From assembly GCA_009379825.1 (NCBI GenBank), contig WHTA01000001.1:1-64000 (forward strand): a stretch of DNA of 64,000 nt, given 5' to 3'. Both the position numbers and the translations under genes were made by a program. The DNA is from Streptosporangiales bacterium (lineage in GTDB: Bacteria > Actinomycetota > Actinomycetes > Streptosporangiales > WHST01). Shown one piece after another: positions 48,751 through 52,650 of this stretch. The number at the start of each line of letters is the position of its first letter. Position 1 is the stretch's first letter. The notes beneath the pieces are model-generated. The model was given only the letters and a program-made list of their open reading frames with translations, ran no database searches and had not been told where the DNA came from.

Positions 48751-49752
48751 ATGACCGAGGATGACAGCGCGCCGTCGGCATGGGCGGCGCTCGGGCCGTT
48801 GATGGACCTGGCGACGCCGATGGCGTTGCGGGTGGCTGCCACGCTGCGTATCGCCGACCTGATGGGGGACGGGCCGGTCGCCGTCGAGTCGCTGGCCGAA
48901 CGCAGCGGCACGGACGTCGACGCGCTGAGCCGACTGCTGCGCCACCTGGCGACGCGCGGCGTCTTCGCCGAGCCGGACCCGGGCAGGTTCGCCGCCGGTG
49001 GGCTGGGGCGGTTGCTGCATTCCGACCATCCCGCCGGCATGCGTACCTGGTTGGACCTGGACGGGTTCGGTGGCCGGATGGACCTGGCGTTCACCGAGCT
49101 GTTGCACACCGTCCGCACCGGCGAGCCCGCTTGGCCGCGGGTGTTCGGGCAGCCGTTCTGGGACCACCTGGCCGCGGACCGGCACCTGGCGGCGTCCTTC
49201 GACACCGCCATGGCCACGGGGCCGGAGTACATCGTGGACGCCGCCGGCGGCTGCGACTGGACGGCCGTGTCACACGTCGTGGACGTCGGTGGCGGCAAAG
49301 GTGCGTTGCTGGCGGAGGCGTTGCGTGCCAACCCGCAGCTGCGCGCGACGCTCGTCGACCTGCCAGACACCGTGGAGCGCGGCCGCGCGCACCTGGCCGC
49401 GCTCGGCCTCGACGACCGGTGCGCGTTCGTCGGGCAGAGCTTCTTCGACCCGCTGCCGACCGGCGGCGACGTCTACGTACTCAGCGGCGTGGTGCACGAC
49501 TGGCCGGACGACGACGCCGTCGCGATCCTGCGCCGGCGGCCGCGTCCTCGTGGTCGAGACGCACGGCACCGCCGGCGACGACCCGGCCACCTTCACCGAG
49601 ATGGACCTCCGGATGCTGGCCCTCTGCGGCGGCCGCGAACGGACCGTGGACGGCTACACCACCCTGGCCACCACCGCCGCCTCCGCGTCGCCGACGTCCA
49701 CACCACCCCGCTGGGCCACGTCCTGCTGAACTGCGTCGCAGCAACCCCCTGA
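48751..49752 (+). pseudogene. O-methyltransferase (hydroxyneurosporene-type), two frameshifts
   Basis: An N-terminal winged-helix dimerisation domain (LRVAATLRIADLMGDGPVAV) and the SAM domain VVDVGGGKGALLAEAL are intact to AILRR near 49530. The frame then shifts, with a few codons missing, to RVLVVETHGTAGDDPATFTE, and shifts again near 49680 (one base missing) to LRVADVHTTPLGHVLLN. The last is consistent with a G dropped from GCCGG. It would methylate a small hydroxy aromatic compound. It is either decayed or misread. Confidence 0.78.
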
Positions 49753-49781
49753 TGCCCCGTGCCCCGAGTGCCGGAAAGGGC

Positions 49782-50366
49782 TCAGCCGGTTGGCAGGGGA
49801 CGGCCGGCTGTGGGGCGCCAGCCGTCCGGTGGGTCCTCGCCTACGCGGCCGTCCACTGCTTCGCGGAGTAGGTCGGCGTGGCCGGTGTGCCGGCCGTACT
49901 CCTCGATGAGGTCGCAGGTCAGCCGGCGCCAGCTGGCGTGGTTCCCTTCCGGGTCGGCGACGTGGACGGGGCGGCCAGGGCCGCCGTCGTCGAGGGCGGT
50001 TTGGAAGCGGGTGCGCGACCGCGCGACGGCGCCGTCCCAGAGGTCGTAGAGCTGGTCAGCGGAGTCGTCGGCGGCGGAGGTGAACTCCCAGTCGTTGCTG
50101 CCGTCGCCGCCCATGGCGTCCCACGGCGCGCCGAGCGGTTCGCCGTGCAGCTTGGCGGTGGAGTAGTAGTCCTCAACGGCGGCGAGATGCTTGAGCAGCC
50201 CACCGAGCGTGAGTGCGGACGCGCCGATACGGGTCAGCAGCCCGGACGCGTCGAGGCCGTCGGCCTTCCAACGGAACGTCGTGCGCAGCCGGTCGAGCGC
50301 GCCGAGCAGCTGCTCGGCCTCTGAGCCGGCCACCGGTGGCTCCCACGGGTAGTCGTCGTCGGTCAC
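49782..50366 (-). CDS. DinB-family protein (DUF664)
   Basis: 194 residues. LDRLRTTFRWKADGLDASGLL, LGGLLKHLAAVEDYYS with the first His ligand and CDLIEEYGRHTGHADLLRE with the H-x-x-H pair are those of DUF664/DinB proteins, probably mycothiol-linked transferases. It is convergent with the methyltransferase. Confidence 0.86.
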   Translation of the reverse strand: MTDDDYPWEPPVAGSEAEQLLGALDRLRTTFRWKADGLDASGLLTRIGASALTLGGLLKHLAAVEDYYSTAKLHGEPLGAPWDAMGGDGSNDWEFTSAADDSADQLYDLWDGAVARSRTRFQTALDDGGPGRPVHVADPEGNHASWRRLTCDLIEEYGRHTGHADLLREAVDGRVGEDPPDGWRPTAGRPLPTG

Positions 50367-50405
50367 GCCGTCACCGTAGACCGCGGCGCCGACAGCGCAT
50401 CCCGC

Positions 50406-51335
50406 TCAGCGGGCGAGGTCGGTGAGCGGGATGCCGAGGTGCTCGAGCTTCGCCGGGTTGACCATGCCGTGCACTGCGTGCACCCGGTCGCCGGCGACCA
50501 CGAGCGACCAGACGCCGGCCAGGGCGCCGTCCGGGGCGAGGATGAGGACAGCGGGCTGCGTGCCGACCCAGACGGGCTGCGTCGTGCCGCTCAGCGACCT
50601 GATGCGGCGGAAGATGCCCCGTACGGTCTTCGCGACCGCGTCCGCGCCGTGGATCGCACGAGTGACGCCCCTGCCGGAGCTGCCGCCGTCGCCGACGAAC
50701 TCCGCTTCCGGGGCCAGCAACGCGACGAGCCCGTCGAGGTTGCCGTCGTGTGCGGCGGCGAAGAACCGGTTGGCCAGCTGCTGCGCCTCGGTGGTGGACG
50801 TAGCCGTGGGCGTCGGCTGGTCGGTACGGACCCGGCGCCTGGCCCGGGTGGCGAGCTGGCGGCAGGCCTCCTCGGACTTGCCCAGGATCGACGCCACCTC
50901 GGCGTACGGCAGGTCGAAGACGTCGTGCAGCAGCAGCGCCGCCCGCTGCTCGGGGCTGAGCCGCTCCAGCAGCACGAGGAACGCCGTGGACAGCGAGTCG
51001 GCGAGCGCGGCCGCGTCGGCGGGGTCGTCGAGCACAGAAGGCTCGGGCAGCCACGGGCCGACGTACGTCTCCCGCCGGTGCTGCGCAGACCGCAGCTGGT
51101 CGATGGCCAGCCGGGTGGTGATGGTGACCAGGTAGCCGCGCTGGGAGTCCGGCCGTTCGCCGGCGAGCAGGGCACGCCGCAGTCGCAGGAACGCCTCCTG
51201 CACCACGTCCTCGGCGTCGCGGAAGCTGCCGAGCATCCGGTACGCCACCGCGAGCAGCGCGCCGCGGTGCTCCGTGTACGCCGCCGCCAGACGACGGTCG
51301 ATGTCGTCCCAGTCGCGGGTCTCTTGGTCGGTCAC
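50406..51335 (-). CDS. sigJ: ECF41-type RNA polymerase sigma factor (SigJ-like)
   Basis: 309 residues. Region 2 is VAYRMLGSFRDAEDVVQEAFLR, region 4 is LSPEQRAALLLHDVFDLPYAEVA, and a C-terminal SnoaL-like domain begins near residue 190. The ECF41-specific NPxKL motif appears as VNPAKLEHL, and the DGGGK-like loop as FVGDGGSSGRG. ECF41 factors lack an anti-sigma gene and are held by this C-terminal domain. It transcribes itself and the divergent DoxX gene from the two exact promoters between them. Confidence 0.9.
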   Translation of the reverse strand: MTDQETRDWDDIDRRLAAAYTEHRGALLAVAYRMLGSFRDAEDVVQEAFLRLRRALLAGERPDSQRGYLVTITTRLAIDQLRSAQHRRETYVGPWLPEPSVLDDPADAAALADSLSTAFLVLLERLSPEQRAALLLHDVFDLPYAEVASILGKSEEACRQLATRARRRVRTDQPTPTATSTTEAQQLANRFFAAAHDGNLDGLVALLAPEAEFVGDGGSSGRGVTRAIHGADAVAKTVRGIFRRIRSLSGTTQPVWVGTQPAVLILAPDGALAGVWSLVVAGDRVHAVHGMVNPAKLEHLGIPLTDLAR

Positions 51336-51344
51336 ATCTGTCCT

Positions 51345-51371
51345 GACGAGCTGCGCACGGTGGTTGTGACA
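51345..51371 (-). promoter_or_regulatory. ECF41 promoter for the sigma gene
   Basis: On the minus strand TGTCACA (51371-51365), then exactly 16 nt, then CGTC (51348-51345): the published ECF41 consensus TGTCACA-n16-CGTC. It lies 9 nt upstream of the sigma ATG. Confidence 0.88.
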
Positions 51372-51378
51372 GCGAGCC

Positions 51379-51405
51379 TGTCACAACCGGCGGCCGTATC
51401 TCGTC
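51379..51405 (+). promoter_or_regulatory. ECF41 promoter for the DoxX gene
   Basis: TGTCACA (51379-51385), 16 nt, CGTC (51402-51405), the same consensus facing the other way. The two -35 elements form an 11-bp inverted repeat with a 5-nt spacer (51363-51389). Confidence 0.88.
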
Positions 51406-51437
51406 CACTCCTCGTCCGATGTTCGAGAGGAGTGCTC

Positions 51438-51809
51438 ATGTCCGTAGCGTTGTGGTTGGTCAGTGGCCTGCTCGCCGTTGCCTTCATCGTGTCCGGGGTG
51501 GCGAAGGCGACGATGTCACGGGACCGGTTGCTCGCCACCGGGCAGACCGGCATCGCGCCGTTCCCGATGCCGGTCGTACGGATCGTCGCCTGCTGTGAGC
51601 TGCTCGCGGTCGTCGGGCTGTTCGCGCCGTGGCTGACCGGTGTGGTCCCGGCGCTGACGCCCGTCGCCGCGCTCGGCCTGGTGGCCGTGATGTCCGGGGC
51701 GGCCGTCTCGCACGCCTCGCTCGGCGAGCCGCGGCCGGTCGCCGTCAACCTCGCGCTGCTGCTCGCCGCCGGCTTCGTCGCGGCGGGCAGGTTCGCGCAG
51801 CTGCTATAG
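51438..51809 (+). CDS. DoxX-like membrane protein
   Basis: 123 residues with four helices (LWLVSGLLAVAFIVSGVAKA, then IVACCELLAVVGLFAPWL and two more), the DoxX/DUF417 layout. AGGAG precedes ATG 51438. It is the usual sort of partner gene in ECF41 regulons, along with carboxymuconolactone decarboxylases. The electron donor or acceptor is unknown. Confidence 0.85.
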   Translation: MSVALWLVSGLLAVAFIVSGVAKATMSRDRLLATGQTGIAPFPMPVVRIVACCELLAVVGLFAPWLTGVVPALTPVAALGLVAVMSGAAVSHASLGEPRPVAVNLALLLAAGFVAAGRFAQLL

Positions 51810-51847
51810 CCGACCTATAACACCGGCAACTAGCGTCCCCGACGGGC

Positions 51848-52650
51848 ATGGCGACTACGACGGGGACACCAATGGACACGGAATACATCTTCGACACCGG
51901 CTCCGACCTGGGCGAGGAGCACGTACGGTGTCTGGAGGAGCTGCTCGACGGGCCGACCAAGGAGTGCTTGGGCACCGTCGTCGGGGCCGGCCAGCGTTGC
52001 CTCGACGTCGGCGCGGGTGGCGGGTCGATCGCGGGCTGGCTGGCAGAGCGCACCGGGCCGTCGTCGCGACGGACCTCGACACCGACCACCTGGTCGCGCA
52101 CCCGGGCGTCCAGGTGCGCGCGCACGACATCAACGAGGGACCGCCGCCCGGTGGGCCGTTCGACCTCATCCACGCCCGGCTGCTGCTGATCCACCTGCCG
52201 CGGTGCAGGGAGGTCCTGGCGAGCCTGGTCGACGCACTTGCGCCGGGTGGCTGGTTGGTGGTCGGCGAGCTCACCGACCGTCCGCTCGAGGTGCTGTCGG
52301 CGCCGAGCGACGCCGACCAGGAGCTGTTCCGGCGGATGCAGTACCTCTCGCTCGAGGTCGTGTCGCCGGCGGTGGGCATGCACTGGCCGTGGGCAGGTGA
52401 GGTGGACGGTGCGATGGTCGACGCGGGCCTGGTCGACGTCCAGGCCCGCGAGTTGTCCCGTACGACGGTCGGCGGCAGCCCGGGATGCCGGCTGCACCGC
52501 AACCTGAACATGCAGGCCGAGCCGCTGCTGCGAAAGGCAGGTGCCACCGACGGCGAGCTGGCCAGGTACCGCGAGCTGATGCTCGACCCGCGGTTCCGCG
52601 CGTGGTTCCACCAGTTCGTCTGCACCTGGGGAAGGAAGCAACATGGCTGA
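51848..52650 (+). pseudogene. SAM-dependent methyltransferase, one frameshift
   Basis: 267 codons. CLDVGAGGGSIAGWLAERTG (SAM motif I) is in the first frame; near 52050 it shifts to AVVATDLDTDHL and FDLIHARLLLIHLPRC, then AGLVDVQARELSRT to the end. A single-base change fixes it. The 3-prime end overlaps the next methyltransferase by 8 nt. The substrate is unknown. Confidence 0.78.

Follow-up and report, generated by a model that had tools for sequence, protein, structure and literature searches.

As reported in the text of Wecke 2012 (PMC3426412), ECF41 sigma factors carry a WLPEP motif and lose activity when the C-terminal extension is removed entirely, while partial truncation (residues 204/206) led to a ~20- and 120-fold rise. 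Members of the family characteristically have no anti-sigma gene and are controlled by this SnoaL-like extension of ~100 aa. In two organisms, ECF41 sigma factors activate a bipartite motif, TGTCACA-n16-CGTC; there the COE gene or operon (COE being a decarboxylase, oxidoreductase, or epimerase) was the sole detected target, and the promoter before the sigma gene was predicted (PMC3426412). Among the 55 divergent loci of the same work, the motif precedes the sigma gene in 36 and the COE gene in 41, and often both genes carry it. A COE gene is missing from 126 published loci (34%), so the lack of a COE neighbour is common, and such a neighbour is not a defining trait. In Sinorhizobium meliloti, the distance from the motif to the mapped start site downstream is 9 nt (PMC3616915).

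We analyzed a 64,000-nucleotide stretch of DNA from a Streptosporangiales bacterium (hereafter, the window), in which an initial annotation had recognized two ECF41 promoters beside a sigma factor gene. An ECF41 identity of this gene is borne out. The protein scores 301 bits against NF007214, the SigJ subfamily model (cut-off, 271); its score against TIGR02957, 298.6 bits, is below the cut-off of 323.25. The Pfam domains are r2 (residues 20-85), r4_2 (118-168), and SnoaL_2 (189-265), so that the protein has only the sigma2 and sigma4 domains plus a SnoaL-like C-terminal extension. WLPEP is present in the sigma2-sigma4 linker (GPWLPEPSV), and the best solved relative is SigJ (PDB 5xe7, 1.5e-49).

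According to Pfam, the genes adjoining the sigma gene encode a DoxX_2 protein and a mycothiol-S-transferase; the neighbour is thus DoxX_2 and not the COE gene that is usual, though not required, at ECF41 loci. Given the 39-nt spacing, the mycothiol-S-transferase gene is probably co-transcribed with the sigma gene. As a conserved third part of the locus it is not supported: the single tblastn match among the other loci (L100) lies away from the sigma gene of that locus. Downstream of doxX, at 51848-52650, a methyltransferase-like stretch is split over two frames (113- and 240-aa ORFs), reflecting a frameshift or a sequencing error. The coordinates of the features are collected in Table 1.

Table 1. 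Features of the sigma/doxX locus, with positions counted in the window.
Feature	Position	Strand	Basis or remark
Mycothiol-S-transferase (DinB-like) gene	49782..50366	-	PF04978 4.3e-28; 39 nt downstream of sigma gene
ECF41 (SigJ-type) sigma factor, 309 aa, sigma2-WLPEP linker-sigma4-SnoaL_2	50406..51335	-	NF007214, Pfam, PDB 5xe7, ORF list
ECF41-type promoter of the sigma gene	51345..51371	-	Exact TGTCACA-n16-CGTC; matrix rank 2 of 127,920
Sigma promoter elements	-35, 51371-51365; -10, 51348-51345	-	Predicted start 51336/51335 = start codon
Inverted repeat of 27 bp (arms, 11 bp; loop, 5 nt, CGAGC)	51361..51387	.	Two -35 elements and flanking bases
ECF41-type promoter for doxX	51379..51405	+	Exact TGTCACA-n16-CGTC; matrix rank 1 of 127,920; start site mapped 9 nt from same motif in S. 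meliloti
doxX promoter elements	-35 TGTCACA, 51379-51385; -10 CGTC, 51402-51405	+	Predicted start site ~51414-51415
DoxX_2 family small membrane protein, 123 aa	51438..51809	+	PF13564 6.3e-20

The 102-bp intergenic region between the sigma gene and doxX contains two separate predicted ECF41 promoters in back-to-back orientation. TGTCACA-n16-CGTC is thus found before both genes, and the initial annotation was exact about its presence on both strands, the 16-nt spacers, and the inverted repeat, whose arms read GGTTGTGACAG/CTGTCACAACC (11 bp each, by sequence inspection) around a loop of 5 nt. Its description of the promoters as face to face does not hold. The -35 elements are inside and the -10 elements outside, so that transcription runs outward and the arrangement is divergent; the convergent reading was rejected on this ground. 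Nor is there a shared -35 zone: the two TGTCACA elements are adjacent, 7 nt apart, and have no base in common.

The motif occurs exactly twice in the window. With a spacer of 14 to 18 nt, TGTCACA-N14-18-CGTC would be expected 0.20 times per window by chance, and two matches were reached in 2 of 100 dinucleotide shuffles. When the 127,920 positions of the window were scored with a promoter weight matrix built from 120 other divergent loci, the two arms came out on top (23.9 and 22.6 bits; next, 7.5). Most of this score comes from the 11 fixed bases, and the spacer and discriminator columns contribute little; scored without the fixed bases, the arms are matched by 3% and 6% of window positions.

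The full divergent pattern is present once in the source genome. With gaps of 0-60 between the -35 elements, 28 of the 249 genomes scanned within the order have it, with 32 pairs in total, compared to 0 matches for a reversed control pattern. Few pairs were present in other samples (2/286, 4/280, and 4/396 genomes, the last count coming from a broad phylum sample and including the source genome), and at gaps of 31-61, a pair was found in 1 of 396 genomes of such a sample. A wider regulon in the source genome is not supported: TGTCACA-N16-CGTC is found there at 4 places versus 2 for the reversed control, and the relaxed TGTCAC-N17-CGTC at 9 versus 8. The source genome has seven ECF41-like genes scoring >220 bits (L005-L011), and in the flanking stretches examined, only the window sigma gene has a strict motif reading into it. 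One of the seven (L010), ~13 kb beyond the locus on the same contig, contains an internal TAG and is apparently broken.

Scanning genome contigs for the divergent pattern at gaps of 0-30 revealed at least 120 loci. A sigma profile was built from the window sigma protein and 29 homologues, and 97 of the 120 listed loci have an ORF that matches it and whose start is no more than 200 nt from one -10 element; of the remaining 23, some are truncated by the end of the stretch examined and others have two non-sigma genes. At L040, L079, L093, and L140 and at L048, L082, L106, and L130, no sigma homologue was found immediately adjacent to the exact divergent pair. DoxX faces an enoyl-CoA hydratase at L079, and cytochrome b lies on one side of the pair at L130. 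Such sigma-less pairs suggest two targets driven in trans.

In 40 relatives, none of the sigma matches listed is >48% identical to the window sigma protein. L160 (genome G003, from another family), the nearest homologous locus within the order, encodes a 46% identical sigma protein and a 66% identical DoxX protein, and its genes are divergent with both promoters, as in the window; unlike in the window, each spacer is 17 nt, the -35 elements abut (gap 0), and the sigma leader is longer. A Kribbella locus (L099; DoxX 66%, sigma 47%) also has both promoters but with -35 elements 1 nt apart. The gaps in mycobacterial sigma/DoxX loci are 5, 10, 23, 24, and 26.

Since an ECF41 sigma factor is encoded at the locus and the published ECF41 promoter stands before both its gene and doxX, positive autoregulation, as the initial annotation proposed, is the natural reading, and homologous sigma/DoxX loci keep both promoters. 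We consider it quite likely that these are two working divergent promoters with positive autoregulation by the window sigma factor. The SnoaL-like extension would restrain the sigma factor until a signal relieves the restraint, as described for ECF41. The active sigma factor, bound to RNA polymerase, would then direct transcription of doxX from one arm and of its own gene, probably together with the mycothiol-S-transferase gene, from the other. The result would be a positive feedback loop with one local output.

The -35 elements lie 7 bp apart and the predicted start sites ~79 bp apart. The latter distance is less than two usual polymerase footprints, so overlap of the RNA polymerase footprints is likely; two polymerases probably could not occupy both arms together, and each initiation round would serve one gene. 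Competition between the two promoters is therefore plausible from the geometry, and exclusion between the arms, judged from the predicted start-site distance, has in our estimate a nearly even chance of being correct. Alternatively, both promoters could be used together without exclusion, their closeness reflecting a compact intergenic region only; this account overlaps with the preferred one in all but exclusion. The wide variation of the gap among homologous loci, related loci placing the -35 elements as far as 23-26 bp apart, argues that no single geometry is required, while the short distance between predicted starts argues the other way, as do the two nearest homologous loci with their gaps of 0 and 1. 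Joint use of the promoters is possible but somewhat doubtful.

Returning to two divergent promoters served by the window sigma factor, their outputs would differ in translation. In the frame of the sigma gene, no start codon precedes the GTG, whose distance from CGTC is 9 nt. Because this equals the mapped start distance in S. meliloti, the sigma mRNA from its own promoter should be leaderless; we find it fairly probable that it starts at or within one base of the GTG. This predicted leaderless sigma start is the new element here. The doxX ATG is located 32 nt after CGTC, leaving a leader of ~23 nt with a good Shine-Dalgarno sequence (AGGAG, 51428-51432) 5 nt before the ATG.

A short start distance is found elsewhere too. 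Among sigma loci whose frame is open at the position in question, an in-frame ATG/GTG is located 8 nt after CGTC in 24 of 39, a sharp peak, and 9 nt after CGTC in 6 of 30. Overall, an in-frame start at 8 or 9 nt was found in 30 of 97 sigma loci, or in 17 of 40 clusters at 70% identity. Some partner genes likewise start 7-10 nt after CGTC, which points to a habit of ECF41 promoters that is not confined to sigma genes. At many loci, L160 and L061 among them, leaders with Shine-Dalgarno-like sites are present instead. The likely sigma start of L160 is ~54 nt after CGTC, so the leaderless start is not conserved there. The 8-9 nt peak predicts that many ECF41 sigma mRNAs are leaderless.

It is also conceivable that only the doxX arm works, the sigma gene being transcribed from another, constitutive promoter and its motif being weak or a decoy. 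COE genes were the only targets detected in Wecke 2012, and among the published divergent loci whose counts that text gives, the motif precedes the sigma gene in 36 of 55 and is absent in 19. An AGGA located 5 nt before the sigma GTG fits this view as well, since it could serve the translation of a longer, leadered transcript begun at a different promoter. The sigma arm is, however, an exact consensus and second only to the doxX arm in the window, and no sigma-70-like promoter was found in 49700-52000 by a scan that is crude for an actinomycete. We therefore regard a silent sigma arm as unlikely.

The distances between -35 elements in the 120 listed loci (L025-L144) cluster in two ranges, 9-13 and 20-24, and the values 8, 14, 15, and 25 do not occur; the window gap of 7 belongs to a minor short group. 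Counted as 78 cluster-gap combinations, 25 are at 9-13, 7 at 14-19, 30 at 20-24, 9 below 9, and 7 above 24. This clustering may reflect helical turns or shared ancestry. Rayleigh tests for a 10-11 bp period gave p values of ~0.00004 to 0.003 at 60-80% clustering and of 0.7-0.85 at 50% clustering, and other periods score equally or higher. The trough at 14-19 bp (7 of 62) was assessed with bins chosen after inspection of the data. Because of shared ancestry and the later choice of bins, the spacing pattern is a lead and not a result, though the preference is odd enough to merit a proper survey. An evolved either/or switch, in which the gap would be under selection (9-13 and 20-24 bp, close to one and two turns of the helix) and the balance of feedback and output would be set in translation by a leaderless sigma mRNA versus a leadered target mRNA, appears decidedly improbable.

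Gaps of 27-29 were also found, as were gaps of 33-35 in one locus type. The latter is a recurrent pair in which a third element, containing GTCAC or GTGAC, separates the two -35 elements; it is present in several genera including the source genus (L207), and its members are L181-L187, L200-L202, L206, L207, and L219-L222. One genome has the same pair with a gap of 44 at two sites far apart (L179 and L180), an apparent duplication, with a sigma match at only one copy in the stretch examined.

The perfect 11-bp arms, the short loop, and the position centred between divergent genes would suit another main role of the inverted repeat, as an operator for a dimeric repressor or activator, with a secondary resemblance to promoters. 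We consider this very improbable. In homologous sigma/DoxX loci, half-sites lie 0, 1, 5, 10, 21, 22, 23, 24, or 26 bp apart, a variation that a fixed dimer could not tolerate and on which a fixed-geometry repressor operator was rejected. Each half has retained a CGTC of its own, at 16-17 nt, and symmetry extending 4 bp past TGTCACA is ordinary (at least 4 bp in 15 of the 120 listed loci). Both promoters being kept while the distance changes fits two promoters, not one dimer site.

DoxX and mycothiol are loosely tied to thiol or oxidative stress, and a stress role of the sigma/doxX locus may be supposed on that basis. Partner families were tallied for 97 partner-side ORFs from the loci listed (135 candidates, of which 96 were scanned after removal of close duplicates, plus the window DoxX); since the ORFs were picked mechanically, the counts are approximate. 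Carboxymuconolactone decarboxylase was found 24 times, DoxX_2 17, Epimerase 10, MMPL 7, and cytochrome b 6, making DoxX_2 the second commonest family. By single-sequence search, a clear DoxX homologue is present opposite the sigma gene in 14 of 97 sigma loci, a weak extra match at L051 being uncounted. Nine DoxX matches were found in 345 genomes of the class; in the flanking stretch examined, an exact promoter pair accompanies the window gene and L209, one motif accompanies L211, and none is seen at the other six. DoxX does not appear in the main text of Wecke 2012 (PMC3426412), and a search of the open-access literature, which is no proof of absence, found no paper pairing ECF41 or SigJ with DoxX. 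Within that literature, DoxX is not among the partner genes described with the ECF41 family, though the layout is known, and DoxX_2 is a recurrent ECF41 partner beyond the published COE set.

The locus does not overturn known biology; it would provide a compact positive-feedback module, amenable to testing, for a family of sigma factors about whose signal and function little is known. The divergent arrangement of an ECF41 sigma gene and its target with both promoters is already in print, as described in Wecke 2012 (PMC3426412): the <ECF< >COE> loci resemble the window in having an ECF41 sigma gene divergent from a target, with TGTCACA-n16-CGTC before both. SigJ of Mycobacterium tuberculosis (PDB 5xe7; PMC8999054), the closest solved structure by sequence, is likewise an ECF41 sigma factor with a SnoaL-like extension. 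RpoE9 (ECF41) of Sinorhizobium meliloti, as presented in PMC3616915 and PMC6180224, shares the motif with the window but differs in layout: its target gene lies upstream of the sigma gene in one operon, and there is one promoter only.
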